From assembly GCF_009708175.1 (NCBI RefSeq), contig NZ_WMBB01000016.1:62001-126000 (forward strand): DNA of 64,000 nt, written 5' to 3'. The DNA comes from Nocardia aurantiaca (lineage in GTDB: Bacteria; Actinomycetota; Actinomycetes; Mycobacteriales; Mycobacteriaceae). This document shows, in pieces, positions 6,045-51,271 of the stretch; the first letter of the stretch is position 1, and every line of letters begins with the position of its first letter. The position numbers and the translations under genes were made by a program. The notes under the pieces are model-generated. The model worked only from the letters and a program-made list of their open reading frames with translations, had not been told where the DNA came from and ran no database searches.

Positions 6045-6049
6045 AGCAG

Positions 6050-19286: not shown

Positions 19287-19297
19287 TCAGGAGAGCA

Positions 19298-24879: not shown

Positions 24880-26357
24880 CAGCGGATCCTTCCGTGCAAC
24901 GCGGAGACCAAACGGTCGACAATGGCGTCGGTGAGGGGTTTGCGGGCGAACGTCGTGAGCGCCAGCGGCAAGGGGAAGCGTTGCCACGTGGTCGATTTGG
25001 AGTAGGTGAATTCGCGGAGCCCGTCGGGGCCGTGCACGCGCCCGAATCCGGAAGCGCCGACACCTCCCAACGGCAGGTTCGGTACGGTGGCGTGCGCGAC
25101 GAACGCGTTGATCGAGGTGCCGCCGGTGTGGATCCGGTCCGCGATCTCCCGTCCGTGGCGTCGGGCGAAAACGGTTGCGCCGAGGCCGTACTCACTGGCA
25201 TTGACCAGTTCGACCGCTTCGTCCATGTCGGCCACCCGGGTCACGGTCAGCGTCGGCCCGAACGTCTCCTCGGTGACCGCCGAACAGTCTTCGGGCACGT
25301 TCACGAGGATGGTGGGCTGCACGAACTGGCCGTCGATGGCATCCGGCCCGCCGATCAGCGCACTCCCGCCCCGTGCCAGGGCGTCGCCGAGATGACGCCG
25401 GATGACGTCGAGCTGCTTCGGCATGGTGATCGGGCCGATCTTCGCCGGCTCGTCGCCCGCACGCAGGTCATCGGTCAGCGCCAGGAGCTTGGTCAGGAAT
25501 TCGTCGTAGACCTCGGTGTGCACGTAGACGCGCTCGACACCCAGGCACGTCTGCCCGGCGTTGGACATTCCGCCCCAGATCGCAGCGTCGGCCGCCGCGG
25601 TCAGATCGGCATCCGCGTCGACGAGGAGCGCGTCCTTGCCGCCGCATTCCATCAGCACGGGGGTGAGATTCTCGGCGCACGCGGACATCACGCGTTTCCC
25701 GGTCTCGGTCGATCCGGTGAAGCCGATCTTGCCGACCCCGCTGCGGCACAGTGCCGCCCCGGTCTCGCCCGCCCCGGTGATGACCTGCAGGACAGGAACT
25801 TCCGGCACAGCCCGCCCGAAAGCCTCACCGAGCCATACGCCGACGCCTGGGGAGTATTCGCTGGGCTTGAACACGACCGCGTTTCCGGCGGCGAGTGCGA
25901 ACGATATCGAGCTCAACGGTGTGAAGACCGGGTAATTCCAGGGGCCGATGACGCCGACAACCCCGAAGGGACGGTATTCGACGCTGCAACCCTGATTGAT
26001 CGTGAGCAGGCTCGCACCCACCGTCCGGCGGGCCAGCACCCCGCGTGCGTTGTGCGCCGCCCACTTCAAGTGCTCGAGGGCCATGACTATCTCGAGTTTG
26101 GCGTCGGAGATCGGTTTACCCATCTCTTCGTGCATCAGGTGTGCGAGATCGTCGCGTCCCCGGGTGATCTCGGCGCGCCACCGGTCCAGGTGCCGACGGC
26201 GCTCCTCGAAATCCAGAGCGGCCCACCAGGTCCCGGCCGACCGGCCGCGTGCGACGGCGGCCGTGACGTGGTCGGCGGTGTGGACCGGATACTCGCCCAC
26301 CGCGATGCCGGTTGCCGGATTGCGCACCTCGAACGAGGTCGTTGTGCGAGTAGTCAT
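24879..26357 (-). CDS. Aldehyde dehydrogenase (NAD(P)-dependent)
   Basis: 492 residues. The catalytic Glu lies in MECGGKDALL (about residue 237), the catalytic Cys in NAGQTCLGVERVY (about 270), and the coenzyme-binding GFTGSTETGKRV is present. WNYPVFTPLSS is the usual N-terminal proline/asparagine region. It oxidises an aldehyde to the acid used by the adjacent synthetase. ATG 26357 overlaps the SRPBCC gene stop by four bases. The upstream frame stays open, but that part overlaps the SRPBCC gene and is not aldehyde dehydrogenase sequence. Confidence 0.93.
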   Translation of the reverse strand: MTTRTTTSFEVRNPATGIAVGEYPVHTADHVTAAVARGRSAGTWWAALDFEERRRHLDRWRAEITRGRDDLAHLMHEEMGKPISDAKLEIVMALEHLKWAAHNARGVLARRTVGASLLTINQGCSVEYRPFGVVGVIGPWNYPVFTPLSSISFALAAGNAVVFKPSEYSPGVGVWLGEAFGRAVPEVPVLQVITGAGETGAALCRSGVGKIGFTGSTETGKRVMSACAENLTPVLMECGGKDALLVDADADLTAAADAAIWGGMSNAGQTCLGVERVYVHTEVYDEFLTKLLALTDDLRAGDEPAKIGPITMPKQLDVIRRHLGDALARGGSALIGGPDAIDGQFVQPTILVNVPEDCSAVTEETFGPTLTVTRVADMDEAVELVNASEYGLGATVFARRHGREIADRIHTGGTSINAFVAHATVPNLPLGGVGASGFGRVHGPDGLREFTYSKSTTWQRFPLPLALTTFARKPLTDAIVDRLVSALHGRIR

Positions 26358-26863
26358 CGACCGGCCTCTCGTGTCTCCCACTGTGCCCCGTCGGCGAGGC
26401 CCTTCGCGATCGCCTTGGTGACGGACCGGGCCACCGGACTTGCCGTGGCCAGCAGCGGCCGCAGCACCGCCTTTCCCTCGAGGGCGAATGTCCAGGTCAA
26501 CCGAGTCCCCGTCGAGATCTGCTCGAGCTGAATGTCCTCGGCGAACCGATTCAGTCCCGGGATCGACGCGGACTTGACCGCGAATGTCATTCGGGACCCG
26601 TCCTGCCAGCGGTAGAACCGCTCCTCGAGCCGGATGAAGCGCCCCACGGTAACGACACGGGTGGTGCCGATGCCGAACGGGCGCGTGGAGGTCCACCGCA
26701 CCGCGGTGATGACCGGGGACCAGGACACCAAGGCGTCGTCCGCGGTCAATCGGTTCCACACCGCCCGGGAGTTCTGGGGGAGGTCGACGACATGCCGGTA
26801 GCGGTGGTCGGCGTCGCGCAGGAAGGTATCGCCGGCTGAAGCGAGTGCGAAGCGCTCGGTCAT
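26354..26863 (-). CDS. SRPBCC family protein
   Basis: 169 residues with a START/polyketide-cyclase-like helix-grip pattern: VVDLPQNSRAVWNRLTADDALVSW at the start, and alternating strands. Such proteins bind a hydrophobic ligand in a deep pocket. It lies between an NTF2-like gene and the aldehyde dehydrogenase in the same minus-strand operon, so a role in holding or presenting the hydrophobic substrate is plausible (inference). No catalytic residues can be named. Confidence 0.8.
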   Translation of the reverse strand: MTERFALASAGDTFLRDADHRYRHVVDLPQNSRAVWNRLTADDALVSWSPVITAVRWTSTRPFGIGTTRVVTVGRFIRLEERFYRWQDGSRMTFAVKSASIPGLNRFAEDIQLEQISTGTRLTWTFALEGKAVLRPLLATASPVARSVTKAIAKGLADGAQWETREAGR

Positions 26864-26939
26864 AGGTGAGATGGCCTTTCATTGGCAGGGATCCAGGAGA
26901 GAACAGGTGGCGAGCACACCGCTTCGCCTGCCTTCGGGT

Positions 26940-27722
26940 TCACTGACCGATGCCGAACCGGCCCAACAGCTTTCGTGTAGACGCCCCCACGGCGGTGGCA
27001 CGCATCAGGGCGTGGAACTGCCGACTGTCATCGCGGGGCAACAGCATCGACGACTGCAACCCATCGAGAATGTCGAACAGGGTTTCGCCTTCGCACATGC
27101 GACCGGAGCTGTCGAAGTGGTAGCGGTCCACCGCCGAGACCTGCACGAATCGACCCGTGCCCGGGATCGCCGGTGCCGAGTCGTCGTACGGGTACAGGCG
27201 GAGTGGCCCGTCCCAGTGGCCGCTGCCGACGTAGCGGACCGCGAAACTCACCCGTCCCTCGGGTGTGACATCGAGGTACACCTGACCCGGCAGCGGGTCG
27301 TAGCGCCAATCCGGGATGGCGTCGAAGAAGCAGTAGTTGTACTTCACGAACTCGGGGATCCCGACCATCGTCCGGCCGAACGAGGATACGTCCTTCCAGC
27401 GCACGTCCGGCGTGTACAGCTCGTCGGCGACGCTCATGTCCCGTTCGAGCCAGCTCCACCAGTACTTCTTGGTCCACTCCAGCAGCCAGCTCAGTTCGAC
27501 CCCGAGCTTCTCGTAGAACGCGAGCTTCGCTTCGAACTCGGCGAACCACTGCAACGCGTTGGCGGTCAGCTGGTCTTCGGACATCGAGCGCACCGGAGCG
27601 CCGCGATTGCCCGTCACGAATTCCGGTGCCGGCTGCCGGTACCGGCGCTTCAGCAGCGCCTGTTGAAACTTCTCTTCCGAGTAGTTCGAAGCGGGCTGCG
27701 GGGGAGTGGTCTTTCGTGCCAT
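26940..27722 (-). CDS. NTF2/SnoaL-like protein, paralogue 1
   Basis: 260 residues. A conserved N-terminal arm (PAPEFVTGNRG) precedes an NTF2-like core with Trp-rich WTKKYWWSWLERDM and the family signature PDWRYDPLPGQ near residue 140. GHWDGPLRLYPYDD and SAVDRYHF follow. Two full paralogues (33201-33980 and 36539-37321) and one truncated copy (3125) occur in the window, each behind the same long dyad. I cannot assign a reaction; the fold can be a hydratase, an isomerase or a binding protein. ATG 27722 was chosen to match the paralogues (all start MA) and has GGAGACGG upstream. It is the first gene of the operon running through SRPBCC, aldehyde dehydrogenase and acyl-CoA synthetase. Confidence 0.85.
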   Translation of the reverse strand: MARKTTPPQPASNYSEEKFQQALLKRRYRQPAPEFVTGNRGAPVRSMSEDQLTANALQWFAEFEAKLAFYEKLGVELSWLLEWTKKYWWSWLERDMSVADELYTPDVRWKDVSSFGRTMVGIPEFVKYNYCFFDAIPDWRYDPLPGQVYLDVTPEGRVSFAVRYVGSGHWDGPLRLYPYDDSAPAIPGTGRFVQVSAVDRYHFDSSGRMCEGETLFDILDGLQSSMLLPRDDSRQFHALMRATAVGASTRKLLGRFGIGQ

Positions 27723-27762
27723 CGATTCCGTCTCCATTGATCGGCTGGGGCACCGCACGGTG

Positions 27763-27816
27763 TTGACAACGATTGTGTCCTACAGTGATCCTGATACAGG
27801 AGACGGTTGTAGTCAA
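27763..27816. promoter_or_regulatory. Long dyad promoter/operator, copy 3 (divergent)
   Basis: 54-bp element between the NTF2-like gene (minus) and the P450 gene (plus). Half-sites TTGACAACGATTGTGTCC and the mirror of TTGACTACAACCGTCTCC match at 14 of 21 positions. On each strand the TTGAC end can act as a -35 (TTGACA or TTGACT). A -10-like hexamer follows, GATCCT on plus (spacer 18) and CAGGAT on minus (spacer 17), so the two promoters would face each other and overlap within the operator. Confidence 0.75.
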
Positions 27817-27833
27817 GATGAAGGAGGTTCTCG

Positions 27834-29300
27834 ATGAGCGCGGAGCCGACAACGAAGTCGCTGGTGTGCCCAGTCGATCACGGCGGGGGTACGGCGCAAC
27901 CGACCGAGCGACGCGCAGTACCCGCGACACGCTTCAGCACCCGCACGATGACCAGCGAGGTTCTGCGCAGAGGGTTCGGGCGCGAAGACGGCATGGTCGC
28001 TCGCCTCGAAGGACACGACTTCGCCCGCTGGCGCATCGGGCAGCGGCGCTGGGTGTCCATCCAGCACCCCGACGACATCGACCACGTTCTGCACAAGCAC
28101 CGGGAGAATTACCCCAAATCTCCGGACTACGAGCCCTTGCGGGGAGTGCTGGGGCTCAGTCTCTTCACCGACGACGACCCGTCGTGGTCGCGGCACCGCA
28201 AGATGCTCAATCCCAAGTTCCAGAAGCGTCATGTTGATGCGTTGTTGCCGCTGATGGTGGGGACGGTGCTCGAATTCCGCGAAACGCTCGACAACCTCCC
28301 CGATGGGAGCGAGGTCGAAATGGTCGGGCTGATGACCGATCTGACGCTGGAGGTCGCGGGCCATTCACTGTTCAGCCAGAGCTTCCGCGGCTACTTCGGC
28401 GACGACACCGCGGAGTTGATCACCGAAGGGTTGCGCAAGGGAACCTGGCTGTCGCGGATCTTCTTCCTGGTCGACCCGCCGCGCTGGATGTCCAGCGCCG
28501 TGTGGAAGGTGATGCACAGCCGGAAGATCCCGACACCACCGCCGTTCAATCGATTCCAAAAGGTCGCCCGGGTGATCGATGGCGCGGCGGACAAGGTACT
28601 GCGCGAGCGCCTGGCGCACCCCTCGGACTCACCGGACCTGCTCAACCTGCTGCTGGAAGTGGCCGACGACGACGGCCCGCTGACGCCCGATCGCACTCGG
28701 GCCGAGGCGATCTCATTCATGCTCACCGGCTACGAGACCACCGCGAACGCGATGTGCTGGCTGTGGTATCTGCTGGCGTTGAATCCGGATGCGCGCCAGC
28801 GGATGCTCGACGAGATCGATTCCGTGCTGCAAGGTCGGGTGGTCACCCTCGAGGACGTACCCAAGCTGCAGTGGACCACGGCCTGCCTGGAGGAGTCGAT
28901 GCGAATCTTCCCGCCGGTGTGGATGATCACTCGCGAAGCGGTCGAGGACGACGTCATCGGCGGGCACCCGGTCAAGGCGGGCGAGACGGTCGCCATCGTG
29001 ATCGAGCACGTCCACCGCGACCCTCGATTCTGGCCAGATCCAGGGCGTTTCGACCCGTCACGATTCCTGCCGGGTGCCGATCGCGACCGTCCGCGTTCGT
29101 CGTATCTCCCCTTCGGCGGCGGTAAGCGCATCTGCATCGGACGCAACTTCGCGCTGCTCGAGGCGGTCATGCTCACCGCGACGCTCAGCCAGAACCATGT
29201 CTTCGACCTCGTTCCGGGGCATCAGGTGGAGGCGGAGACGACCTTCACCCTGCGTCCCCGGCAGGGAATCCAGATGATTGCGAGGCGTCGTGACCAGTGA
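27834..29300 (+). CDS. Cytochrome P450
   Basis: 488 residues. The haem-binding loop FGGGKRICIGRNFA places the axial Cys at about residue 434. The ExxR pair is in EESMR at about 353-356, and the oxygen-activating I-helix is LTGYETTAN near 298. The sequence style (PPVWMITREA, HRDPRFWPDP) resembles the CYP4/CYP102-like bacterial group, which often hydroxylates fatty acids, alkanes or terpenoids. Start ATG 27834 has a strong AAGGAGG seven bases upstream. It overlaps the reductase gene by 11 bases, and a rubredoxin follows: an apparent three-component oxygenase operon driven from the divergent dyad. Confidence 0.94.
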   Translation: MSAEPTTKSLVCPVDHGGGTAQPTERRAVPATRFSTRTMTSEVLRRGFGREDGMVARLEGHDFARWRIGQRRWVSIQHPDDIDHVLHKHRENYPKSPDYEPLRGVLGLSLFTDDDPSWSRHRKMLNPKFQKRHVDALLPLMVGTVLEFRETLDNLPDGSEVEMVGLMTDLTLEVAGHSLFSQSFRGYFGDDTAELITEGLRKGTWLSRIFFLVDPPRWMSSAVWKVMHSRKIPTPPPFNRFQKVARVIDGAADKVLRERLAHPSDSPDLLNLLLEVADDDGPLTPDRTRAEAISFMLTGYETTANAMCWLWYLLALNPDARQRMLDEIDSVLQGRVVTLEDVPKLQWTTACLEESMRIFPPVWMITREAVEDDVIGGHPVKAGETVAIVIEHVHRDPRFWPDPGRFDPSRFLPGADRDRPRSSYLPFGGGKRICIGRNFALLEAVMLTATLSQNHVFDLVPGHQVEAETTFTLRPRQGIQMIARRRDQ

Positions 29301-30627
29301 ACGACTCCGTGTCGCGATCGTGGGTGCCGGCCCGGCCGGTATCTACGCCGCCGACCGGCTCATCAAGGAAATCCCGGATGTGCGCATCGATCTGCTCGAG
29401 CGGCTACCCGCGCCGTTCGGTCTGATCCGGTACGGCGTCGCTCCCGACCATCCACGCATCAAGGGCATCATCCGCACGTTGCATCGTGTCCTCGACCAGC
29501 CGCAGGTCCGGTTTCTGGGAAACGTGGACTACGGCATCGACGTGGACCTGGAAACGCTGCGCAGCAACTACCACGCGGTCGTCTTCGCCACCGGAGCTCT
29601 GAAGGACCGTCCCCTGCGGGTGGCCGGAAACGACCTGGATGGCTCGTACAGCACGGCGGAGTTCGTCTCCTGGTACGACGGGCATCCCGACGGCCCGCGG
29701 ACCTGGCCCCTGCACGCCCGGAAAGTGGCCGTGATCGGCATGGGCAACGTGGCTCTCGACGCGGCCCGGATGCTGGCCAAGACCGCGGATGAGTTGGCGC
29801 ACACCGAGATTCCTGACAATGTCTACGATGGGCTGGCCGCGAACGCCGCGACCGAGATCCATGTCTTCGGCAGGCGCGGTCCGGCCCAGGCCAAGTTCAG
29901 CCCGATGGAACTGCGAGAGCTCGACGAGTCGCCGAACATCGATGTCATCGTCGACCCGAACGACATCGCCTATGACGATGCGTCGATCGCGGCGCGCACG
30001 TCCTCGAAGATCACCGATCAGGTTGCCGCCATCATCGAGGACTACGCGGCGCGCGGCAGTCAGGGGCGAGCGCACAAGCTGGTGCTGCACTTCTTCGAAG
30101 AGCCGATCGAGATCCTCGGAAACGACGGGGCCGTAACCGCGCTGCGCACTGAGCGCACCAAGCTGGACGGGACCGGAAACGCGGTGCGCACAGGTCAATT
30201 CACCGATTGGCCGGTGGAGGCCGTGTACCGCGCCATCGGCTACCTCTCCGATGAGCTCCCCGAATTGCCGTTCGATACACACCGTGGCGTCATACCCAAC
30301 GATGAGGGCCGGATCGAAGGCTTGCCCGGCGTCTATGTCACCGGCTGGGTTCGCCGCGGTCCGGTCGGCCTGATCGGCCACACCCGCAGTGACTCGGCCG
30401 AAGTCATCGCCGGGCTGCTCGCCGACTACAAAGCCGGGAAGTTCTCCGATGAGGTCGGCCCCGACATCGTGGAGATCCTCGACGCCCGTGGCCATCTCTA
30501 CACCACCTGGGATGGCTGGCACCGGCTCGACGCCCATGAACGCGGCCTCGGTGCCCAACGCGGGCGCGAACGCACCAAAGTCGTCGAGCGCGCCGACATG
30601 ATCGCGGCTGCCCAGGCTCTCGACTGA
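29290..30627 (+). CDS. Ferredoxin-NADP+ reductase (FprA / adrenodoxin reductase type)
   Basis: 445 residues. The FAD motif [17 protein letters not shown] is at the N-terminus, followed by the family signature [17 protein letters not shown]; the NADPH motif [15 protein letters not shown] is near residue 150, and [16 protein letters not shown] near the C-terminus. It transfers electrons from NADPH to a small iron protein. GTG 29290 lies inside the end of the P450 gene; the first upstream alternative would add only four residues. With P450 upstream and rubredoxin 33 bases downstream, it probably feeds the P450 through the rubredoxin. Confidence 0.93.
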
Positions 30628-30659
30628 CCATTCCGCAACGATCGCGAAAGGAGATCACG

Positions 30660-30842
30660 ATGAACGACTACAAGGTGTACGTGTGTACGCAATGTGGCTT
30701 CGAGTACGACGAGGCCAAGGGCTGGCCGGAGGAGGACATCGCCCCCGGCACGCGCTGGGCGGACATCCCCGACGATTGGAGCTGCCCGGACTGCGGTGCC
30801 GCCAAGGCCGACTTCGACATGGTCGAGGTCGAACGAGCCTGA
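30660..30842 (+). CDS. Rubredoxin, copy 1
   Basis: 60 residues with two CxxCG knuckles ([10 protein letters not shown] and [11 protein letters not shown]) that hold one iron atom. It shares 54 of 60 residues with the rubredoxin at 39942-40124. Strong ribosome-binding site AAAGGAGATC before ATG. In alkane hydroxylases rubredoxin is the electron donor; here it is coupled to a P450 and an FprA-type reductase, an uncommon pairing. A perfect terminator follows eight bases after the stop. Confidence 0.95.
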
Positions 30843-30849
30843 ACCCGTT

Positions 30850-30884
30850 GAGGGAGCCCGGATGCTGAGCATCCGGGCTCCCTC
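30850..30884. terminator. Perfect stem-loop terminator after the P450 operon
   Basis: GAGGGAGCCCGGATGC (30850-30865) and GCATCCGGGCTCCCTC (30869-30884) pair perfectly over 16 bases around TGA. It is followed by TCGTTG rather than a U-tract. A smaller perfect hairpin, CCGAATCG/CGATTCGG, lies at 30904-30928. Confidence 0.8.
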
Positions 30885-30940
30885 TCGTTGTCTCCCTGCT
30901 GTTCCGAATCGCTTCCGCTGCGATTCGGTTGGTATGCAAT

Positions 30941-30977
30941 GCCATTCGACCCCGCGCGGGCGGCGGGGTCGAATGGC
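30941..30977. terminator. Perfect stem-loop terminator of the molybdopterin oxidoreductase gene
   Basis: GCCATTCGACCCCGC (30941-30955) and GCGGGGTCGAATGGC (30963-30977) are exact inverted repeats with a 7-base loop. They end five bases past the stop of the minus-strand gene, so the convergent transcripts each have their own terminator. Confidence 0.75.
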
Positions 30978-30981
30978 CGTG

Positions 30982-33138
30982 TCAGGCTTCGGCCTCGCAC
31001 GCCTCCAGGGTCACCGGGACACCGTTGAGGTGGGCCATGCCTCCGAGCCGCTCGATGTCCTCGAAGGCCGTCGACATCAGCTGATTGACGTTGGCGCCGC
31101 CGGACTTGTTGGCAAGCTCCCAGGACCCGCCCGCATGTCCCCATCCGTGAGGTACGGCGACGGTGCCCGGGCCGACATCGTCGGTGAGCAGCGCGATCGT
31201 CTGGATCTGTCCGTGGCGGGAGCGGATGCGCACGGGTGCGCCGTCGGCGATGCCGGCTGCCGCGGCGTCGGCCGGGTTGATGCGGGCGGAGTGGCGACGA
31301 TTGCCCTTCATCAGGCTGGGGGCGTTGTGGTGCCAGGAGTTGTGGGAGCGCAACTCGCGCAAGCCGATCAGCTTGAGCGGGAAGTCGGCGTCGGCGTACG
31401 GTGCGAGCCGGGCGAGTTCGTCGGCGATCTCGGGTGGGTCGAGCCGCACCTTGCCGCCGCGGTGGCGCAACACCTGATCGAGGCGACCGGTCGCGGCGTG
31501 CTCGCTCAACACGATGCCGTGGGGGTTCTCTCGTAGTTTCCGGGGGTTGAGTCCACCACGGCGCAGGCCGAACAGGTCTCCGTGCGGCCCCAGGCGCAGG
31601 AGCGCCTCCATCATCGGTCGCGGCGTGAGCCGGGCTGGGATCTTGGTGGTCAGACCGGCGAGGTGACGCAGCGGACCGAGGTGGAACATGCCGATGCCGG
31701 CGCGGCGGGCGATGTCGTCGATGATCTGCCATTCGGGCCGGGCCTCGCCGTACGCCGGTAGGACGGCCTCGGTGGCCTGGATGAACGGTGTGGGCGAGGC
31801 GGAGGTGACGCCGATGGGGTAGTCCTCGCGTTCCAGCCACGTGGTGGCAGGGAGGACGTAGTCGGCGTGCCGATTGGTCTCGTTCACATAGAGATCGATC
31901 GACACCAGGAGATCGAGTCGGCCGAACGCCTCGGCGAGGGCTTTGCCGTTGGGCACCGAGAGGACAGGATTGCCGGCGGTCACGAAAAGCGCGCGCAGTC
32001 GGCCCTTTCCGGGTGTGGTGATCTCGTCGGCCATGAGAGCGGCCGGGTACGCGCCGAGCACCTCGGGGAAGCCGCCCAGCCGCGATTTCGAGTGGGCGTA
32101 GGTCGCGATGCCGACGCGCTCGGCGATCTCCTCGGCGGGAATCACGCCGCGGGAGAACAACGTGCCGCCCGCTCGGTCGAGATTGCCGGTGACCAGCGTG
32201 AGGACGTCGATCAGGAAGCCCACCAGGGTCGCGTAGCGCCCGAGGCACGAGCCCGTGCGCCCATATGCCGTGGCGCTGGGAGCGGCAGCGAAATCGCGAG
32301 CCAAGCGGCGGACGTCGTCGGCGGGCACGCCGGTGATCGTCTCGGTCTTCTCGGGCGGGTGCGCGGCCGCGGCACGACGGATCAGGGCGACGCCGATGGA
32401 CTGGCGGGCGATGGCAGCCTTGTCGACCAAGCCCTCGGAGAACAACACGTGTAGCAGCGAGAGCAGCAGCCAGGCGTCCCCGTCGGGGCGGATGGCCACA
32501 TGCTCGTAGGCGCGCGCGGTTTCGGTCCGTCGCGGATCGACCACGACGACTCTTCCGCCGCGTCGCACGATCGCGGAGAGCTGATCCTTGATGCGCGGGG
32601 CGCTGATGGCGCTGCCGTGGGAGACGAGCGGGTTGGCTCCCAGCATCAGCACGAAGTCGGTGCGGGGCAGATCCGGGAACGGCAATTGGGCCACGCTGCC
32701 GTACAGCAGGCTGCTGGCCACGAACCGGCTGTTGATGTCCTGGGAGCCGGGGCCGTAAATGTGTTTGGTACCAAGTCCGTTGGCGAAACCGAATACCCAC
32801 AGCGCATGGGAGTAGGAAAAGGCCGACGGATTCCCGAAGTAGATCCCGACCTCGTCGTGTGGGATCGTGCGCAGTCGAGAGGCGATGTCCTCGAGCGCTT
32901 GGTCCCAGGTGACCTGTTCGAACTCGCCCGCCGCGTTGCGCCTGAGTGGGTGCAGCACCCGGCCGGGGTCGTTCTGGATCTCGGTGAAGGCAATGCCTTT
33001 GGGGCAGGCCTGTCCCCGGGAGAGCGGATGTTGCGGGTCGGGCCGCAGTGACTGGAGCCGACCGTTCTCGACGGTGGCGACCAGGCCGCAGAGGGGCTCG
33101 CAGATCCGGCAGTAGGTCACATGCTTCTCGATCGGCAT
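30982..33138 (-). CDS. Molybdopterin-dependent oxidoreductase (DMSO reductase superfamily)
   Basis: 718 residues. The N-terminal 4Fe-4S motif has Cys10, Cys13, Cys17 and Cys45 (YCRICEPLCG ... GQACPKG). The molybdopterin-binding core contains YGRTGSCLGRYATLVGFL and TGNLDRAGGTLF, and the C-terminal aspartate-decarboxylase-like barrel ends with VPHGWGHAGGSWELANKSGGANVNQL. This is the cytoplasmic single-subunit type related to formate dehydrogenase H and assimilatory nitrate reductase. The substrate is unknown. ATG 33138 was chosen because the Fe-S domain starts at once. It lies 62 bases after an NTF2-like gene, so it is probably driven from the dyad at 34024. Confidence 0.9.
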   Translation of the reverse strand: MPIEKHVTYCRICEPLCGLVATVENGRLQSLRPDPQHPLSRGQACPKGIAFTEIQNDPGRVLHPLRRNAAGEFEQVTWDQALEDIASRLRTIPHDEVGIYFGNPSAFSYSHALWVFGFANGLGTKHIYGPGSQDINSRFVASSLLYGSVAQLPFPDLPRTDFVLMLGANPLVSHGSAISAPRIKDQLSAIVRRGGRVVVVDPRRTETARAYEHVAIRPDGDAWLLLSLLHVLFSEGLVDKAAIARQSIGVALIRRAAAAHPPEKTETITGVPADDVRRLARDFAAAPSATAYGRTGSCLGRYATLVGFLIDVLTLVTGNLDRAGGTLFSRGVIPAEEIAERVGIATYAHSKSRLGGFPEVLGAYPAALMADEITTPGKGRLRALFVTAGNPVLSVPNGKALAEAFGRLDLLVSIDLYVNETNRHADYVLPATTWLEREDYPIGVTSASPTPFIQATEAVLPAYGEARPEWQIIDDIARRAGIGMFHLGPLRHLAGLTTKIPARLTPRPMMEALLRLGPHGDLFGLRRGGLNPRKLRENPHGIVLSEHAATGRLDQVLRHRGGKVRLDPPEIADELARLAPYADADFPLKLIGLRELRSHNSWHHNAPSLMKGNRRHSARINPADAAAAGIADGAPVRIRSRHGQIQTIALLTDDVGPGTVAVPHGWGHAGGSWELANKSGGANVNQLMSTAFEDIERLGGMAHLNGVPVTLEACEAEA

Positions 33139-33200
33139 GCTTTGTCTCGCTTTCACTTTGGATATTGACACTGCTGCGACCGGCTCCGCGAAGTCGGCAG

Positions 33201-33980
33201 CTATCGCCGCCGGATCAGCCGCTGCGCGGCCGCGCCGACACTGCCCGCCCCGACCAGCGCCCGGAACACGGGACTCCTGTCGCTCGGTAGCAGATTCGAC
33301 ATCTGCATCGCTTCGAACGCGTCCCACATCGTCTCGCCCCGTTGCAGCTGACGGTCGGTGTTGAAGTGGTATCGATCGACGGCGGGAGCCTGCATGAACG
33401 CGCCGGTCGCGGGCATCGCCGGCGCGGACTTGTCGAACGGGTACATCCGCAACGGCTTCTCCCAGAAGCCGGTCCCGACGTAGCGGCCCATGAGCCGCAC
33501 CTCGCCGTCGCGCGTGACGTTGATGAAGAACTGGCCGGGCAGCAGGTCATAGCGCCAGTCCGGGATCGCGTCGAAGAACGCCTGGTTGTAGTCGATGAAC
33601 GCCTGGATCCCGACCATCGGCCGACCGAAGGACACCGGATCCTTGTACTCCACATCCGGTGCCAAGAGCTCCGGAAGCGCTTGCTCGTCGACGCCTTGGT
33701 CCCACGCCATCCAGTACTTCTTGAACCAATCGTTGAGCCACATGATGTCGTGGCCGAGCTTCTCCGAATAGAAGCTGGTTTGCTCTTCCAGTTCGAGGAA
33801 CCACTGCCGTGTGAGGCGGTTCAACTCGTCCTCGCCTAGCGCGCGCTGTCCGTATGACCTGTTGCCCTGGACGAACCGCGGGGCCGGTTTCCTGAGCCGT
33901 CTGCGGTCGAGTGCGCGCTGGAGCCTGGCTTCGAATTCCTCTGTGCCGCTCGCTGATTCGGAGGCTCCCTGGCCTGCCAT
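33201..33980 (-). CDS. NTF2/SnoaL-like protein, paralogue 2
   Basis: 259 residues, same architecture as the proteins at 26940 and 36539: LRKPAPRFVQGNRS arm, WLNDWFKKYWMAWDQG, PDWRYDLLPGQFF, then GTGFWEKPLRMYPFD and AVDRYHFN. The Lys/Trp-rich and PDWRYD motifs are the best conserved. ATG 33980 has GGAGACG six bases before it. It precedes the molybdopterin oxidoreductase on the same strand. Function unknown. Confidence 0.85.
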   Translation of the reverse strand: MAGQGASESASGTEEFEARLQRALDRRRLRKPAPRFVQGNRSYGQRALGEDELNRLTRQWFLELEEQTSFYSEKLGHDIMWLNDWFKKYWMAWDQGVDEQALPELLAPDVEYKDPVSFGRPMVGIQAFIDYNQAFFDAIPDWRYDLLPGQFFINVTRDGEVRLMGRYVGTGFWEKPLRMYPFDKSAPAMPATGAFMQAPAVDRYHFNTDRQLQRGETMWDAFEAMQMSNLLPSDRSPVFRALVGAGSVGAAAQRLIRRR

Positions 33981-34023
33981 CGTCTCGTCTCCATTGATCG
34001 GGCGGGGTGCGCTCCACGCTTTA

Positions 34024-34077
34024 TTGACAACGCTTGTGTCCAACAGTGATAGTGATGCAGGAGACGCTCGTAGTCAA
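34024..34077. promoter_or_regulatory. Long dyad promoter/operator, copy 4 (divergent)
   Basis: 54 bp, between the NTF2-like gene (minus) and the leader ORF plus SDR (plus). Left half TTGACAACGCTTGTGTCC and right half mirror of TTGACTACGAGCGTCTCC. Possible -10 hexamers are GATAGT on plus and CACTAT on minus. The sequence continuing to the right (AGTCAAGATG, TCTCGATGAGC, GCCGACAACGA) is shared with the leader of the P450 gene, showing that the whole promoter cassette was duplicated. Confidence 0.75.
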
Positions 34078-34093
34078 GATGTTCGGGGTCTCG

Positions 34094-34144
34094 ATGAGCT
34101 GTGCCGACAACGAGTCCGAGAATCACGAAATGAGCCGATCATGA
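34094..34144 (+). CDS. 16-codon leader ORF coupled to the SDR gene
   Basis: ATG 34094 starts MSCADNESENHEMSRS and ends in a TGA that overlaps the SDR ATG (ATGA). Its first bases align with the start of the P450 gene (ATGAGC..., GCCGACAACGA), so it may be a vestige of a P450-like start after promoter duplication. It could be translated and couple ribosomes to the SDR, since no better Shine-Dalgarno lies right before the SDR ATG. Confidence 0.35.
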   Translation: MSCADNESENHEMSRS

Positions 34145-35043
34145 ACGCTCTGACCCTGCTGTCCCAGGTGGTTACCCCGTGGACACGCGATTCCGATCGT
34201 GTCGATCTCAAGGGTCGGGTCGCGTTCGTGACCGGGGCCGCGCAAGGCATCGGGTTCGCTACGGCCGAGGCACTGGTCGCCCGGGGCGCGCGCGTCGTCG
34301 TGGTCGATGTGGAGGGCGATGCACTGGAGAAGGCCGTCACCGCGCTCGGTTCGCAGGCAGCCCACGGCGTGACCGCAGACGTGCGCGACCGGCACGCGAT
34401 GGCCGACGCGGTGGCCGAAGCCGTTTCACGGTTCGGCCGGATCGACGTGGTCGTCGCCAACGCCGGTGTCACGCCGCCGCCGGCTACCTTGCGCTGCGTC
34501 GACCTGGACGACTTCGATCGGGTGATAGCGATCAATCTGACCGGTGTGGTCAACACGGTGAAACCGGCACTGGAGCAGGTGATCGAGCACGGGGGGCATG
34601 TCGTTGTGGTTTCCTCGGTGGCCGCCTTCGCCCCGGGCTTCGGAGGTGCGTCCTATGCGGCCAGCAAGGCGGGTGTCGAACAAGTCGGCCGAGCGCTGCG
34701 GATCGAGCTCGGCAGCACAGGGGCGACTGCGGGCGTGGCGTATTTCGGCGTGGTCGACACCGCGCTGGTGAAGCACGCGCTCGACGATGACCCGCTCGGA
34801 CACCGGGTGGACAGGCTGATGCCGGCGCCGATCCGCCATCGAATCACGGCCGCCCGAGCGGCGGAGGTGCTCGTCGACGGCATCGTCAACCGATCCGCCC
34901 GCACGATCGCGCCTTCAGCCTGGGAGCCGTACTCGTTGTTCCGCGAGGTCCTGAATCGTCAGCTGGACAACCTGTTTCGATCCGATCCTCGTGTGCAGGA
35001 CATCGTTCAGGCGGTCGAGCGCCGCCGCCGTGCGATGCGCTGA
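34141..35043 (+). CDS. Short-chain dehydrogenase/reductase
   Basis: 300 residues. NAD(P) motif TGAAQGIG at about 30-37, NAGV near 110, and active-site Ser (VVSSVAAF) with Tyr-x3-Lys in SYAASKAGVEQ at about 171-175. It probably oxidises a secondary alcohol, such as a product of the oxygenases in the region, to a ketone or the reverse. It is a paralogue of 54039-54902: the two share TPPPAT/APAPAT, the long C-terminal extension and the PxAWEPYSLFR/PAGWQQYGWLR segment. Transcribed from the dyad at 34024. Confidence 0.92.
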   Translation: MNALTLLSQVVTPWTRDSDRVDLKGRVAFVTGAAQGIGFATAEALVARGARVVVVDVEGDALEKAVTALGSQAAHGVTADVRDRHAMADAVAEAVSRFGRIDVVVANAGVTPPPATLRCVDLDDFDRVIAINLTGVVNTVKPALEQVIEHGGHVVVVSSVAAFAPGFGGASYAASKAGVEQVGRALRIELGSTGATAGVAYFGVVDTALVKHALDDDPLGHRVDRLMPAPIRHRITAARAAEVLVDGIVNRSARTIAPSAWEPYSLFREVLNRQLDNLFRSDPRVQDIVQAVERRRRAMR

Positions 35044-35270
35044 GCCGAAGCGGTGGTCGCGTGGCCACGCTGATGAATCCCCTTCTGAAGTAGGTCGACC
35101 CGAGGGTGATCGGCTCCCGGATCACCATGTCCGACAGTGATTCGTCGGAACGGCGGCGCAGCTGCCGTGGATCGAGCGCGCACTACCACGTTGCCGACGT
35201 CGCTGCCCGCGGGATCGCGGCTGTCCGGAGCGGGGTGGCTATTACATTACATGAGAAGGATGGGGCGGAG

Positions 35271-36503
35271 ATGGACTGGTCCGGGATCGTGGCGGACCTT
35301 CGTGAGGACTGGTACCTCTACGCGGTCATGCCGGTCTTCGCGGCCGTCATCGGATGGTTCACCAAATTGGCGGCGGTCGAAATGCTGTTTCGGCCATTGG
35401 AATTCAAGGGTATTCCGCCCTACCTCGGCTGGCAGGGGATCATTCCTCGCTATTCGGCGAGGATGGCCACGGTCGCGGTGGACCTGATGATGTCACGGCT
35501 GTTGGATCCGCAGGAGATCATCGACCGCATCGATCCGGCCGAATTGGCCGAGCACGTCCAGGAGCCGATGCTCGAGACCGTCGAGGGCATCGTGCACGAG
35601 CTGATGATGCGGTACCAGCCTGGACTGTGGGAGCGGCTTCCAGAACCGGTGCGGCGTATTATCGTTCGCCGCATCCAACATGACGCGCCGGCGCTCATCG
35701 GGCGCATGATGGACGACCTGAAGAACAATGTGGACGTCGTCTTCGACATGCGCACGATGTGTATCGACGCGTTGTTGCGCGACAAGGCGCTCACGGTGCG
35801 TTTGATCCGCGATATCGCGACTCCGGAGCTGCGGTTCATCGTCCGCTCCGGTCTGATCTTCGGATTCATCCTGGGCATCGTGCAAGCCGCGGTGTGGGCG
35901 CTCACGCACTCGACCATCGTCATGCCGCTGTTCGGTGCGTTCGTGGGGTACTCCACCGATTGGCTCGCGCTGCAGATGATCTTCCGACCCATTCATGAGA
36001 AACGCTACTTCGGCGTCTTCCGTTGGCACGGCTCGTTTCACAAGCGACGCAAGCAGGTGGCCGTCGACTACGGCACTCTCATGGCCACCGAAATCCTCAC
36101 CCCGGCCAACATCATTCATGCCATGCTGACCGGAGCCCAGTCCGACCGTCTTTTCTCCCTCATCGAATACGACATCCAGCGTGTCATGGATCAGCAGATG
36201 GGCCTTGCCAAACCGGTCGTCGAGCTCGCTTTCGGGCGCGGCACTCTCGCGGCCATGAAGCACGATATCGTTGCCATGGTCCGCGAGCAGGTGCCCCGAA
36301 GTTCCGCGCAGATCGAGCATTACACGATGCGGGCCCTCGATGTCCCCGGGCTGATCATCGAGAAGATGGGGATGCTCACCAACGAGGAATACGAGAATCT
36401 GCTGCGTCCCGCCTTCAAACAGGACGAGTGGAAGATCGTGACGGTAGGCGCCGTCCTGGGCTTCCTCGTCGGTGAACTCCAAGTGCATCTGCTGCTGCAC
36501 TGA
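35271..36503 (+). CDS. DUF445 family membrane protein
   Basis: 410 residues with a hydrophobic start (YAVMPVFAAVIGWFTK), a central pair of segments (FGFILGIVQAAVWALTHSTIVMPLFGAFVGY) and a short hydrophobic C-terminus (VGAVLGFLVGELQVHLLL). The repeated GWFTKLAAVEMLFRPLEF and DWLALQMIFRPIHEKRYFG are the hallmark of DUF445, a family of unknown function. ATG 35271 was chosen for the GGCGGAG just upstream. A role in membrane organisation or transport can be guessed but is not shown. Confidence 0.83.
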   Translation: MDWSGIVADLREDWYLYAVMPVFAAVIGWFTKLAAVEMLFRPLEFKGIPPYLGWQGIIPRYSARMATVAVDLMMSRLLDPQEIIDRIDPAELAEHVQEPMLETVEGIVHELMMRYQPGLWERLPEPVRRIIVRRIQHDAPALIGRMMDDLKNNVDVVFDMRTMCIDALLRDKALTVRLIRDIATPELRFIVRSGLIFGFILGIVQAAVWALTHSTIVMPLFGAFVGYSTDWLALQMIFRPIHEKRYFGVFRWHGSFHKRRKQVAVDYGTLMATEILTPANIIHAMLTGAQSDRLFSLIEYDIQRVMDQQMGLAKPVVELAFGRGTLAAMKHDIVAMVREQVPRSSAQIEHYTMRALDVPGLIIEKMGMLTNEEYENLLRPAFKQDEWKIVTVGAVLGFLVGELQVHLLLH

Positions 36504-36538
36504 CCGCCAACCTCAGCGAAGTGGGGGACCCAGGTCGA

Positions 36539-37321
36539 TCACTGAATTCCGGTGAGACTGCGACGTAGTCGGGCGGCCGTGTTGGGGACCTCGAGGACCT
36601 TCATGAGCAGTTTGAACTGCAGCGAGCCGGCCTTCGGGAAGACCCCGGCCCCTTGGAGGCCTTCGAAAGCGTCCCAGATGGTTTCACCGCGGTACAGCAT
36701 GCCGTCGGCGTTCCAGTAGTAGCGGTCCACCGCTGAGCACTGCATGAATGCTCCATTGCCGGGCAGTGATTCGGCGGTCTCGTCGAAGGGGTACACCTTC
36801 AACGGGCCGTCCCAGTGGCCGGTGCCGAGGTAACGAACCATCATCTGCACGGTGCCGTCAGGGTTGATCTGGAGGAAGGACTGGCCGGGCAGCGGGTCGT
36901 AGCGCCAGTCGGGGATCGCGTCGAAGAACGCGATGTTGTAGTCGATGAACTCCTGCAGGCCGACCATGGTCTTGCCGAAGGAGACCGGATCCTTGTAGGT
37001 CACGTCCTGGGTGCAGAGCTCCGCGACGGCGTCCAGGTCTCGGACCAGCCACGCCCACCACCACTTCTTGGTCCAGTCGAGTACCCAGTGCACATCGTGG
37101 CCGAGCTTCTCGTAGAAGCCGATCTGCTCCTCGAACTCGCGGAACCAGATGCGCGCATTTTCGTTGAGCTCGTCCTCGGTGAAGACTCGCTCTTCCTGGG
37201 ACCTGTTGCCGCAGAAGAACTTCGGTGGGGCTTTCTTCAGCATCCTGCGGTCCAGGGCCTGCGCGAACTTCGCTTCGGAGTAGTTCGAAGCCGGCTGTTG
37301 GGAAGTGATTCTCCGTGCCAT
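36539..37321 (-). CDS. NTF2/SnoaL-like protein, paralogue 3
   Basis: 260 residues, closest to paralogue 1: both begin MAR and contain QPASNYSE. Motifs WTKKWWWAWLVRDLD, PDWRYDPLPGQ near residue 140, GHWDGPLKVYPFDE and CSAVDRYYWNADG. It stands alone behind its dyad (37365), downstream of the locus B operon on the same strand, and is convergent with DUF445. The fact that it is expressed as a single gene suggests it acts by itself or with products made elsewhere in the regulon. Confidence 0.85.
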   Translation of the reverse strand: MARRITSQQPASNYSEAKFAQALDRRMLKKAPPKFFCGNRSQEERVFTEDELNENARIWFREFEEQIGFYEKLGHDVHWVLDWTKKWWWAWLVRDLDAVAELCTQDVTYKDPVSFGKTMVGLQEFIDYNIAFFDAIPDWRYDPLPGQSFLQINPDGTVQMMVRYLGTGHWDGPLKVYPFDETAESLPGNGAFMQCSAVDRYYWNADGMLYRGETIWDAFEGLQGAGVFPKAGSLQFKLLMKVLEVPNTAARLRRSLTGIQ

Positions 37322-37364: not shown

Positions 37365-37418
37365 TTGACAACGGTTGTGTCCAATAGCGATGGTGATACA
37401 GGAGACGGTCGTAGTCAA
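37365..37418. promoter_or_regulatory. Long dyad promoter/operator, copy 5
   Basis: 54 bp with halves TTGACAACGGTTGTGTCC and mirror of TTGACTACGACCGTCTCC; -10-like CACCAT on the minus strand. Here the only gene served is the minus-strand NTF2-like gene, because the other flank is the 3' end of the flavin monooxygenase gene. Its right edge ends eight bases before that stop codon. Confidence 0.72.
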
Positions 37419-37425: not shown

Positions 37426-39912
37426 TCAGCGTCCGAACCGCAGTGACACCTCGTCCGAGACGGGCCGCGCCCGGCAGGTCAGCACATAGCCCGCGTCGAT
37501 CTGATCGCGGGTGATCGCCAAGAGGGGATCCGGCGCCATCTCCACATTCCCGCGTTCGACCATGGCCAGGCAGGTTCCGCACGAGCCGCCCAGGCACGAG
37601 TACGGGAGATCCGGGCGCAGTTCGAGTGCGGCGTCGAGAATCGGTGTGCCCTGTGGCATTTCGAAGACGAGATCATCGCCGTGTCCGGTGAGCGCGACGC
37701 GGCAACGAGTCTGTGCTGCGGCGGGCGGGGCGCTGATCTCCCGTGTTTCGAACAGTTCGATCAGGATCCGAGATCTGTCGATGCCGCGTTCCCTGAGCGC
37801 CTGGTGCATATCGGTGACGAGTCCTCGCGGTCCGCACAGCATCCATAGGTCGGCGTCGTGCGCGGCGATCTGTGTCGCGGAGATGCGCCCATGGCGATAG
37901 TCGATGGCTGAGCCCTTCCGCGGTCGGCGAATGGTCGACTGGCGGGATAAGTGGTGAACGACGCGGAGGCGATCTCCGAACCGTCGTGTCAGGGCGACGA
38001 TTTCGGTTGTGAGCATGGTGTCGTCGAGGTCGCGGCTGCCGTAATGGAGGACGAAGGTGCTCGCGGGCTCGGCCTCGAGCGTTGTCGCGATGATCGAGAC
38101 GACCGGAGTGATGCCGCTCCCGCCCACGACGGCACAGTATGTGCGGGTCGAGTGGGCGCCCGGCGGAGTGAACACGCCTGTCGGTTCCGAGACGTACAGG
38201 TCCGTGTCCGAGGGGAAATGATCGACAGCGTAGGGCGAGAACGCGCCGCCGTCCCGGCGTTTGACGGCGATCCGCAGCCGCCCGGACCCGGCGGCGTCGC
38301 ACAGCGAATAGCTGCGGCGAACCGGCCGGCCGTCTCGCGTTCCGTGGATGACGACATGCTGGCCCGCCGAGAAGCGATATCGGGGTGCCAGCCGGGCGGG
38401 CACATCGAATTCGATCACAACGCTGTCCGGGGTGTCCGCCTCGATCGAGCGAACTCGCAGACGGTGGACACCTCCGACTCGAACGCATGGCAGCGGGTCG
38501 AATTCGGTGCTGGAATCCCTTGTCGCCAAGGACAGTCCGGCAAGAATGCTCTGCGCTCCTGCGAGGCCGAGGCTGCCCATCGCGGCGGTGGCACGCCCGA
38601 GCATCGCGGGACGCAGCGCCGCGGACGGGCGGTCGAGCAGTGCGGCGATGCGCGAGAACTGTTGTCCGACAGCCGCATCCCGTTCACCGAGCGCCATCGC
38701 GAGCTGGGTGAGCGGACCCAGGACCCGGATGTGCTGCCCGCCCCGGGTGCTCACATGCGGCATGGCGAGGTCGAACAGCCTGGTCATCGCCCACGCGTTG
38801 TCGATTGCCCGCGCGTTCGCGCCGAAGAAGCGCCGAGACAGGTCGTGGTCGCCGCCCGCGAGGGCACGCCGCAGTTCGACGGCCTGCATCGCCGACACCG
38901 ACATGCCCTGCCCGAACGCCGGGCTGAAACTGCAGACCGCGTCACCGAGAACCAACAGGCCCTGCGGGAATCGGGCCGAGCGCTCGTACCGGCGACGCTG
39001 ATTGGCCAGGTAACGATAGGTGGCGATGTCGGTGATCGGTTCGGCGTCGATGAGCGCCTCCCACACATCGCGGGGCGCGACCGAAGCCGCGAAACGCCAG
39101 AAACCGTCCTCGTCGCTCGGCGGATGATCGGCGCCATATCCGATCAAGGTCAAGGTGTGGCGCTGGCCCTCGATCGCGAACAAGGCGAGGCCGCGGGCGG
39201 GGTCCCGGTTCGCGATCACGATTTCCTTGTCCCCGCGAACCGATTCACCGCGCAGCCGCACATACCGGCTGGCGTACTTCATATCGATCCGCAAGCCCTC
39301 CTCGGCGGGCCGCTCGAAACCCAGATCCTCCAGCCATTGGTTCACCGGTCCGTGCCGACCCATGCAGCTGACTACCAGGTCGCCCTGGATCTCCTGTGTC
39401 CCATGGGAATCGGACGCGACACGCACGCCCGTGACGCGATCACCCGCATGATCGGTCATCAATGACAGGGCCTCGCAACAGTCGATGATCTCGACGTTCG
39501 CCAGCGAGCGAACGCGGGAGCGGACACGCCACTCCAGGAATGGGCGGCTCGCCTGCAACAGCGAGTATCCGGCATCGGATTGGTGCAGAGTGTGCCCGTA
39601 GATCGTCATTCGCAGCTCCGACATGGACCGGCACTCGATCGCGCCGTCGGTCAGCAATGCGGCGGTGATGCCGGGGAACAACTCCTCGAAGATCTGTTGC
39701 CCGCGGGCCAGCAGGGCGTGGACGTGTCGACCCTGTGGCACGCCCGGCCGGTCCCCGGGCATGGACAGATCATCGCGTTCGACAATCGTGACTTTGTCGA
39801 ACGTGTCGCTCAGCACCCGTGCCGAGAGCAGGCCCGCCATGCTCGCTCCGAGCACGATCGCATGGGTTCGCGATCCGACAGGTGCGGAGCGCGGTTGCCG
39901 GTGCTGTCTCAC
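37426..39912 (-). CDS. Fused FAD monooxygenase / ferredoxin-NAD(P) reductase / 2Fe-2S ferredoxin
   Basis: 828 residues with three modules. Residues about 15-450 are an aromatic-hydroxylase-type FAD monooxygenase (VLGASMAGLLSARVL; GDAVCSFSPAFGQGMSVSAMQ). Residues about 480-730 are a ferredoxin reductase: flavin motif RRSYSLCD, then GGSGITPVVSI and the CGPRG nucleotide site. The C-terminal 90 residues are a plant-type ferredoxin with CLGGSCGTC and a fourth Cys in LTCRARP. The reductase and ferredoxin halves alone resemble PaaE or Hmp-like reductases; fusion to an FAD hydroxylase would make a self-sufficient oxygenase. GTG 39912 has GGAGGA upstream. It is the last gene of the locus B operon, right after a rubredoxin. 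Confidence 0.88.
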   Translation of the reverse strand: MRQHRQPRSAPVGSRTHAIVLGASMAGLLSARVLSDTFDKVTIVERDDLSMPGDRPGVPQGRHVHALLARGQQIFEELFPGITAALLTDGAIECRSMSELRMTIYGHTLHQSDAGYSLLQASRPFLEWRVRSRVRSLANVEIIDCCEALSLMTDHAGDRVTGVRVASDSHGTQEIQGDLVVSCMGRHGPVNQWLEDLGFERPAEEGLRIDMKYASRYVRLRGESVRGDKEIVIANRDPARGLALFAIEGQRHTLTLIGYGADHPPSDEDGFWRFAASVAPRDVWEALIDAEPITDIATYRYLANQRRRYERSARFPQGLLVLGDAVCSFSPAFGQGMSVSAMQAVELRRALAGGDHDLSRRFFGANARAIDNAWAMTRLFDLAMPHVSTRGGQHIRVLGPLTQLAMALGERDAAVGQQFSRIAALLDRPSAALRPAMLGRATAAMGSLGLAGAQSILAGLSLATRDSSTEFDPLPCVRVGGVHRLRVRSIEADTPDSVVIEFDVPARLAPRYRFSAGQHVVIHGTRDGRPVRRSYSLCDAAGSGRLRIAVKRRDGGAFSPYAVDHFPSDTDLYVSEPTGVFTPPGAHSTRTYCAVVGGSGITPVVSIIATTLEAEPASTFVLHYGSRDLDDTMLTTEIVALTRRFGDRLRVVHHLSRQSTIRRPRKGSAIDYRHGRISATQIAAHDADLWMLCGPRGLVTDMHQALRERGIDRSRILIELFETREISAPPAAAQTRCRVALTGHGDDLVFEMPQGTPILDAALELRPDLPYSCLGGSCGTCLAMVERGNVEMAPDPLLAITRDQIDAGYVLTCRARPVSDEVSLRFGR

Positions 39913-39941
39913 TGGGGTCCTCCGAAACCAGGGAAATCTGT

Positions 39942-40124
39942 TCAGGCGCGTTCGATTTCGACCATGTCGAAGTCGGCCTTGGCCACGCCGCAATCCGGGC
40001 AGCACCAGTCGTCGGGGATGTCGTCCCATCGGGTGCCGGCGGCGATGTCCTCGTCGGGCCAGCCTTTGGCTTCGTCGTATTCGAAGCCGCACTGTGTGCA
40101 CACGTAGACCTTGTAGTCGTTCAT
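39942..40124 (-). CDS. Rubredoxin, copy 2
   Basis: 60 residues with CTQCG and CPDCG knuckles, 54 of 60 residues identical to the rubredoxin at 30660. A distinguishing change is Cys in place of Ser directly before the second knuckle (WCCPDCG). It lies between an acyl-CoA dehydrogenase and the flavin monooxygenase fusion, with AAAAGGAGGCCACC before ATG 40124. The two proteins may serve the same or different oxygenases. Confidence 0.95.
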
Positions 40125-40171
40125 GGTGGCCTCCTTTTCGCATTCGGTCCGGAATGGACAGCGGGGTCCGC

Positions 40172-51256: not shown

Positions 51257-51271
51257 CATTGGAGGAGTGCA

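Follow-up and report, generated by a model that had tools for sequence, protein, structure and literature searches.

Paralogous NTF2-like proteins behind shared operator-like sites in a putative isoprenoid-catabolic cluster of Nocardia aurantiaca

A 64-kb stretch of contig 7 of the Nocardia aurantiaca genome (NZ_WMBB01000016.1, positions 62,001 to 126,000; hereafter the window, to whose first letter coordinates refer unless a contig or locus is named) contains three paralogous genes for NTF2-like proteins, called here A, B and C, and raises the question of what such proteins do among the cytochrome P450, dehydrogenase and coenzyme A (CoA) genes that surround them. The original prediction saw in them a dedicated enzyme or substrate-binding family acting on oxygenated intermediates. 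We find that they belong to a subfamily that is real, coherent and, as far as we could find, unstudied, and we tentatively interpret them as inducible NTF2-fold pocket enzymes, a new SnoaL-like subfamily, acting on a P450-oxidised isoprenoid.

The paralogues, their family and predicted fold

All three genes lie where they had been predicted, though they are encoded on the minus strand, and a truncated fourth copy at 3125 is likewise present, on the plus strand (Table 1). Identity to B (36539-37321) is 51% for A and 54% for C. The first ~65 residues of the truncated copy can be aligned, after which homology stops; its best alignments are 56% over 54 aa with C (33201) and 49% over 61 aa with a further full copy, D (locus L005), which lies outside the window at C7:55597-56340, 5.7–6.4 kb to its left. 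A search of the 7.4-Mb genome yields five full copies plus the truncated one, the fifth being on contig 10 (C10:54234-54965). Of 150 genomes of the genus, 60 contain the family at a threshold of E 1e-20, and 55 of these 60 have a single match, as against five here. In a phylum sample, 11 of 396 genomes have it; this genome is included in both counts. Searched against the plasmid collection, copy A gave no match.

Against SnoaL_2 (PF12680) the three paralogues reach 31.2, 35.4 and 31.9 bits, above the cut-off of 27, while their scores for PF07366 (SnoaL) are below its cut-off; for TIGR02096 (ketosteroid isomerase-related; cut-off 97.1 bits) copy B scores 22.1 bits, and A and C are unlisted. Of the motifs thought to define the family, KPxPxF..GNR and VDRY are real, and PDWRYDxLPGQ is not universal: its Arg and Asp are replaced by Ala and Tyr in copy D (C7:55597) and in the three orthologues aligned with it.

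An AlphaFold2 model of copy B, built on 62 members (predicted local distance difference test score 92; predicted template modelling score 0.85), consists of an N-terminal arm, a long helix (residues 49–72), an NTF2 core (68–230) and a terminal helix (234–257). The model has the NTF2 cone fold, with 3kkg as its closest match (Z 15.2, root-mean-square deviation 2.2, 140 residues) and other SnoaL-class proteins next; the solved structures match mainly residues 68–228, so that the arm and the terminal helix are extras. With copy B as query, no convincing solved relative was found by sequence; a profile match to 4cnl (E 1e-4) covers short repeated stretches and was hence taken as chance.

In the alignment of the 62 members, from which near-duplicates, L082 and L083 were dropped, 32 columns are invariant, among them Asp111, Asn129, Asp138, Arg163, Asp199, Arg200, Thr214 and Asp217; these eight are shared by solitary members and cluster members. 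Conservation is highest in the core (0.74–0.79), lower in the arm (0.61) and lowest in the C-terminal helix (0.55). The paralogues share with the SnoaL-like family (SnoaL, AknH, IdmH and SnoaL2) the NTF2 core and a PD motif after the core helix, but differ in their length of ~260 aa, the conserved KPxPxF..GNR arm, the C-terminal helix and a longer loop at 171–190; the view that they are not generic SnoaL proteins is upheld, in that a distinct subfamily is supported.

Equivalences with SnoaL were drawn through SnoaL-like proteins of the same genome, their PDB alignments and excerpts of the IdmH paper (PMC6830212). They place Asp199 at the site of SnoaL His107/IdmH Asn117 and Thr214 at that of SnoaL Asp121/IdmH Thr131, both of which, according to those excerpts, lie in the published pockets. 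The residues of a SnoaL-type aldol cyclase (Asp121, His107 and His119) align, by a weak profile match, with Thr214, Asp199 and Gly212, each invariant (n = 62), and, since the acid-base residues appear to be replaced, a SnoaL-type aldol reaction is predicted to be unlikely. Limonene-1,2-epoxide hydrolase, which has an Arg-Asp-Asp triad with Tyr and Asn, shares the NTF2 fold (5aif: Z 12.3, root-mean-square deviation 2.5, 124 aligned). Asp111 falls on an Asn that is invariant in three aligned limonene-epoxide-hydrolase-like sequences; the alignment with the profile of that family (PF07858) is weak (E 0.038, 21 columns).

Operator-like sites and a candidate regulator

The three genes were also claimed to stand behind the same operator, and an 18-bp site, TTGACWACGNNNGTNTCC, indeed precedes each of A, B and C, forming an inverted pair with a spacing of exactly 36 bp and 0–1 mismatch per arm (27763/27799, 34024/34060 and 37365/37401). 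A 36-bp pair is also present 9.3 kb to the left of the window, before a second P450 gene, P450-2; copy D has single or weaker sites in front, and the contig-10 copy has no TTGACWACGNNNGTNTCC-type site. In the window, a near-identical pattern with up to three mismatches has 28 matches against 8.9 expected, a number reached in none of 100 shuffles. In the whole genome, one 60.6-kb stretch of contig 7 holds all nine exact matches and 14 of the 17 that carry one mismatch or none, and for the good sites these counts, together with the shuffles, rule out chance. Three one-mismatch sites lie off the contig, one of them on C38, the other two being without a second arm by eye. Because the genome total at two or fewer mismatches (58) is near that of a reversed-pattern control (47), two-mismatch sites elsewhere were not counted. 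We infer that the TTGACWACGNNNGTNTCC sites act as operators.

A related cluster, with rearranged gene order, occurs in two Propionibacteriales metagenome-assembled genomes (MAGs) from the lake Lac Pavin. The Pavin stretches (112.6 kb) contain 11 pairs at up to four mismatches, several of them weak; shuffles yield 0–6 pairs per 124 kb at this looseness (10 shuffles), and the weakest Pavin pairs may therefore be chance. Mostly, the pairs have 1–3 mismatches per arm, and they lie before C/P450-2 (37 and 38 bp) and between B and P450-1 (36 bp in both); in one MAG a pair with 35 bp precedes a TetR gene, further pairs stand in front of the aldehyde dehydrogenase gene (35 bp) and next to the flavin fusion (34 bp), and none was found in front of the second MAG's TetR gene, PAVB:21341. 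Since pairs recur at the same genes in the Pavin clusters, the site belongs to the pathway and not to one strain.

The TetR-family protein encoded at 50361 belongs to the same sequence cluster as the TetR proteins beside solitary family genes (see below), which makes it a candidate regulator. It matches Pavin PAVA:482629 at 58%, and a weak pair (3 and 2 mismatches) stands before PAVA:482629. Judged by position and similarity, TetR 50361 may regulate the operator-like sites, with 49561 and the other TetR genes of the window as alternatives.

P450 neighbours and what the paralogues may do

The paralogues are old. Trees were built from 82 rows (rows below 200 aa dropped) and from 34 rows (a chosen subset, with three rows added); A groups with one Pavin copy (bootstrap/SH-aLRT 100/98) and B with two such copies (100/99); D joins copies from Pavin and N. 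vaccinii (100/100). This grouping rules out a recent tandem duplication of one gene and places the duplications before the exchange of the cluster, or the divergence, between the two lineages; that the orthologues of A, B and D were kept in the Propionibacteriales MAGs argues for distinct, retained roles. Window copy C (33201) branches below the group of Pavin C, D and 2535 (99/95), and as it has no strict orthologue, to speak of four orthologous pairs would overstate the case.

P450 genes were sought with a sequence signature on open reading frames (ORFs) of at least 250 aa, a scan that can miss P450s. Six of seven Pavin copies have a P450 within 1 kb; of two more on G151:C5, left out of the scan, one lies ~118 nt from P450-3 and the other has no P450 nearby, so that the total is 7 of 9. 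Both MAGs have copy C followed ~14 nt later by P450-2, in one MAG the stop codon of P450-1 overlaps the start of D (TGATG), and in the window paralogue A lies ~110 nt from P450-1. The tie to P450 genes in this cluster type is strong. The predicted link to P450, short-chain dehydrogenase/reductase (SDR), molybdopterin and CoA genes accordingly stands for this cluster type and the two Pavin MAGs, and lacks support as a trait of the whole family. With 29 of 78 sequences there is an SDR that belongs to one loose sequence cluster, counted at any distance up to 10 kb and with no background test. Gene calls in the neighbourhood comparison, made by a simple score of GC by codon position, include some errors; a 769-aa ORF with no Pfam match just downstream of Pavin copy A (L120:5650-7959, on G151 contig 27) may be a wrong-frame call.

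According to the interpretation that we tentatively favour, an isoprenoid compound would lift a TetR-family repressor, the P450s would then be produced together with the NTF2-like proteins, and the P450s would hydroxylate or epoxidise a hydrophobic isoprenoid. The NTF2-like partner would take the P450 product into its aromatic-rich cone, where it may undergo hydrolysis, dehydration or isomerisation by acid-base chemistry that needs no cofactor; aldehyde oxidation, CoA activation and gamma-carboxylation would come afterwards. In favour of this stand the invariant core columns, the predicted SnoaL-class fold, the pairing with P450 genes in the Pavin clusters, the isoprenoid setting and the retention of A, B and D as orthologues.

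Several observations weigh against such pocket enzymes. None of the 72 other members in the scan, which include the short loci L004, L005, L043 and L072, has a P450 within 3 kb, five P450s being present anywhere in the 1.26 Mb scanned; L005 (copy D) has P450-2 ~1.3 kb upstream, beyond its 3.7-kb locus, which raises the real figure to no less than 1 of 72. With the family-wide link unsupported, action on oxygenated intermediates can be proposed for the cluster paralogues only, and of these, window copies B and C have no adjoining P450. Trp79, Trp83, Phe132 and Asp138 lie inside the two peptide patterns that fetched most members, and their invariance is thus partly a product of selection. An hhalign comparison gives the same SnoaL register, at a probability of only 26% and as a weak profile match. 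Because the SnoaL pair is lost and the limonene-epoxide-hydrolase triad is not transferable, no known reaction can be read from the residues. A conserved polar pocket is also of importance in a protein without catalysis: R76/H78 matter in the non-catalytic ActVI-ORFA, according to excerpts of PMC11315284. The aldehyde dehydrogenase (35–36%) and the Mce genes (29–35%) are weakly matched in Pavin, and the pathways may therefore differ in part. Finally, we found no biochemistry, assay, ligand or structure for the subfamily and, among the best 5–15 papers of each listing from an open-licence collection, nothing on the family with P450s in actinobacteria.

Somewhat unlikely, in our judgement, is that the paralogues are dedicated P450 partners or flux directors, which would bind a P450 through the arm or the C-terminal helix and receive or shield its unstable product with no chemistry of their own. 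Such a non-catalytic role keeps real weight through ActVI-ORFA, a bacterial NTF2-like flux director of actinorhodin biosynthesis that, in the excerpts of PMC11315284, likewise lacks the SnoaL catalytic residues and has the proposed role of guarding an intermediate that is unstable; it differs in belonging to polyketide biosynthesis and in its pocket residues R76/H78. A second precedent is FoTO1, a plant NTF2-like partner of taxadiene 5-alpha-hydroxylase in Taxol biosynthesis which, in the excerpts of PMC12240809, needs its C-terminal helix to bind the P450 and has cavity mutants that keep function. The paralogues resemble it in their NTF2 core, in a C-terminal helix, here predicted, at 234–257, which is the part that FoTO1 uses for binding, and in a context of terpenoid oxidation by P450s. 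The Pavin pairings fit as well: copy C goes with P450-2 in two cases, B with P450-1 in two, and D with P450-3 in two and with P450-1 in one. So do the short gene gaps, the one stop/start overlap and the fact that the Foldseek matches include NTF2 domains of carotenoid proteins (OCP/CTDH). The pairing is not fixed, however, as P450-1 of Nocardia faces A and not B; conservation is lowest in the C-terminal helix; no P450 was found within 3 kb of the 72 other members; and FoTO1, whose cavity mutants stay functional, works in plant biosynthesis, whereas the bacterial proteins, with their strictly kept core columns, belong to catabolism. The Foldseek and VIA-align lists contain no FoTO1 structure, which is no argument against the likeness. 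It is unlikely that the locus represents a bacterial P450-partner system for isoprenoid catabolism, with ancient NTF2-like paralogues that are paired and co-induced with P450s through one operator type and bind them so as to capture or steer the unstable oxidation product, a separately evolved counterpart of FoTO1.

The proximity to P450 genes could also reflect a shared regulon only, the paralogues being hydratases, dehydratases or isomerases of CoA-bound intermediates, although we consider this improbable. BaiE, an NTF2-fold dehydratase on CoA-linked steroids, is a precedent; operator-like pairs stand also by the hydrolase/flavin monooxygenase (FMO)/SDR, aldehyde dehydrogenase and flavin-fusion genes; and B, C and Pavin 2535 adjoin flavin, SDR, molybdopterin or luciferase-like monooxygenase (LLM) genes. 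Against it are the Pavin copies that adjoin P450 genes and the absence of the SnoaL catalytic pair.

Outside the clusters, many Nocardia loci, L012, L040 and L055 among them, have a solitary family gene with a divergent TetR gene and a TGAATCATNTGATTCA-type palindrome, in a two-gene unit. A TetR gene is the commonest neighbour overall, being within 0.5 kb in 48 of 79 members (Pavin included), in 40 of them upstream and divergent; these neighbours were found with the profile of one TetR sequence cluster, and a few matches are weak. A TGAATC...GATTCA-type palindrome is present at the gene start in 35 of the 71 members outside the window and Pavin; elsewhere in the 1.22 Mb of flanks there are three, with 0.09 expected, the pattern having been chosen post hoc, when the sequences had already been inspected. 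Solitary and cluster forms seem to use different operators. That the proteins are induced binding or detoxification proteins for a TetR-sensed compound, the solitary units being inducible modules and the cluster copies recruits, would suit these TetR neighbours and palindromes, but is very improbable given old paralogues retained in a catabolic cluster near P450 genes.

The surrounding cluster and its significance

Table 1. Annotated features of the 64-kb window, in order of position; percentages refer to the Lac Pavin counterparts.
Feature	Position	Strand	Remarks
Operator-like sites, three half-sites	2447..2513		No intact target gene recognised
Operator-like site	2999..3049		Before truncated copy; one arm exact, other with 4 mismatches
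Truncated NTF2-like copy	3125..3325	plus	N-terminal arm only
Mce-type importer genes	4315..12245	plus	MlaE permease, four MlaD proteins
AtuA homologue 1	19283..21157	plus	PF07287 E 4.1e-161
Aldehyde dehydrogenase	24879..26882	minus	Domain from residue 181, true start inside ORF; 35–36%
SRPBCC gene	26354..26863		Before aldehyde dehydrogenase, other frame
NTF2-like paralogue A	26940..27722	minus	260 aa; divergent from P450-1; Lac Pavin MAG orthologue
Operator-like pair, 36 bp spacing	27763..27816		Between paralogue A and P450-1
P450-1	27834..29300	plus	PF00067; 77% in both MAGs
NAD(P)-binding flavoprotein	29278..30627	plus	Pyr_redox_2; 61% in one MAG
Molybdopterin oxidoreductase	30982..33327	minus	66% and 53% in MAGs
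NTF2-like paralogue C	33201..33980	minus	259 aa; divergent from SDR gene; no strict orthologue
SDR dehydrogenase	33811..35043	plus	Start inside ORF; 65% in both MAGs
Operator-like pair, 36 bp spacing	34024..34077		Between paralogue C and SDR gene
NTF2-like paralogue B	36539..37321	minus	260 aa; orthologues in two Lac Pavin MAGs
Operator-like pair, 36 bp spacing	37365..37418		Before paralogue B
FAD oxygenase-like, ferredoxin reductase and 2Fe-2S fusion	37426..40302	minus	52–54% in both MAGs
AtuA homologue 2	41311..43368	minus	PF07287 E 1.9e-130
F420-type LLM oxidoreductase	43274..44317	minus	TIGR03559; 74–77% in both MAGs
Enoyl-CoA hydratase	44305..45066	minus	
Acyl-CoA carboxylase biotin subunit	45063..47030	minus	Best 74–75% in MAGs
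Acyl-CoA carboxyltransferase	47043..48644	minus	Leans to geranyl-CoA-carboxylase type; best 84–86% in MAGs
TetR-family protein	50361..51329	minus	TetR_N at ORF residues 131–176; true start well inside ORF
Operator-like pair, 27 bp spacing	51212..51256		Between TetR gene 50361 and hydrolase/FMO/SDR run

The cluster looks isoprenoid-catabolic, and its carboxylase type, two AtuA homologues (mutually 33–34% alike), Mce importer and P450 affinities make a long isoprenoid its likely diet. The P450s are nearest to terpene-oxidising families, yet far below the cut-offs of those families, and the best solved match of P450-1 is to carotene hydroxylases. To our knowledge, P450s, an Mce importer, an F420-type oxidoreductase and NTF2-like paralogues are absent from the acyclic terpene pathway of Pseudomonas; here they are additional, the paralogues being four in number. 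As described in excerpts of PMC4673880, that acyclic terpene/geranyl-CoA carboxylase pathway shares with the cluster AtuA, the carboxyltransferase type, a hydratase and an acyl-CoA dehydrogenase, the last two also being present in the same region. The criteria given there for telling geranyl-CoA carboxylase (GCC) from methylcrotonyl-CoA carboxylase (MCC) are the N-terminal helix region, the absence of a 3-residue insertion and Gly162 in place of Phe. By these published pocket criteria the carboxyltransferase leans towards the GCC type, having no 3-residue insertion and no Phe, with Ala, not Gly, at the Gly162 column; its overall score is higher for MCC (563.9) than for GCC (518.1). Further best MAG matches are those of P450-2 (73–74%), SDR 54039 (72%), thiolase (82 and 70%) and TetR (55–58%); no AtuA was found in the Pavin stretches examined, despite the carboxyltransferase identity of 84–86%.

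The flavoprotein at 29278..30627 we take to be, probably, an FprA-like ferredoxin reductase, and the fusion at 37426-40302 may either act as a self-sufficient flavin oxygenase or pass electrons to the P450s. The left side of the region has remnants, namely a broken carboxylase piece (17104-18216), the truncated copy at 3125 and a fragment of a thiolase (about -318 to 245); they suggest that some of the cluster was present here in a second copy which has decayed, and the three half-sites at 2447-2513 are perhaps left over from a lost gene. A YhgA-like transposase gene (59795-60922) lies near the right end.

The Taxol pathway, in the excerpts of PMC12240809, provides a precedent in which an NTF2-like protein decides the product of a P450, and a bacterial P450-tied set, probably small and soluble, would make the FoTO1 idea testable in vitro. 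If the paralogues are new enzymes, they may fill a missing step in the actinobacterial degradation of isoprenoids through P450s and geranyl-CoA-type carboxylases, and the operator-like sites, with their candidate regulator, offer a simple route to the inducing compound.

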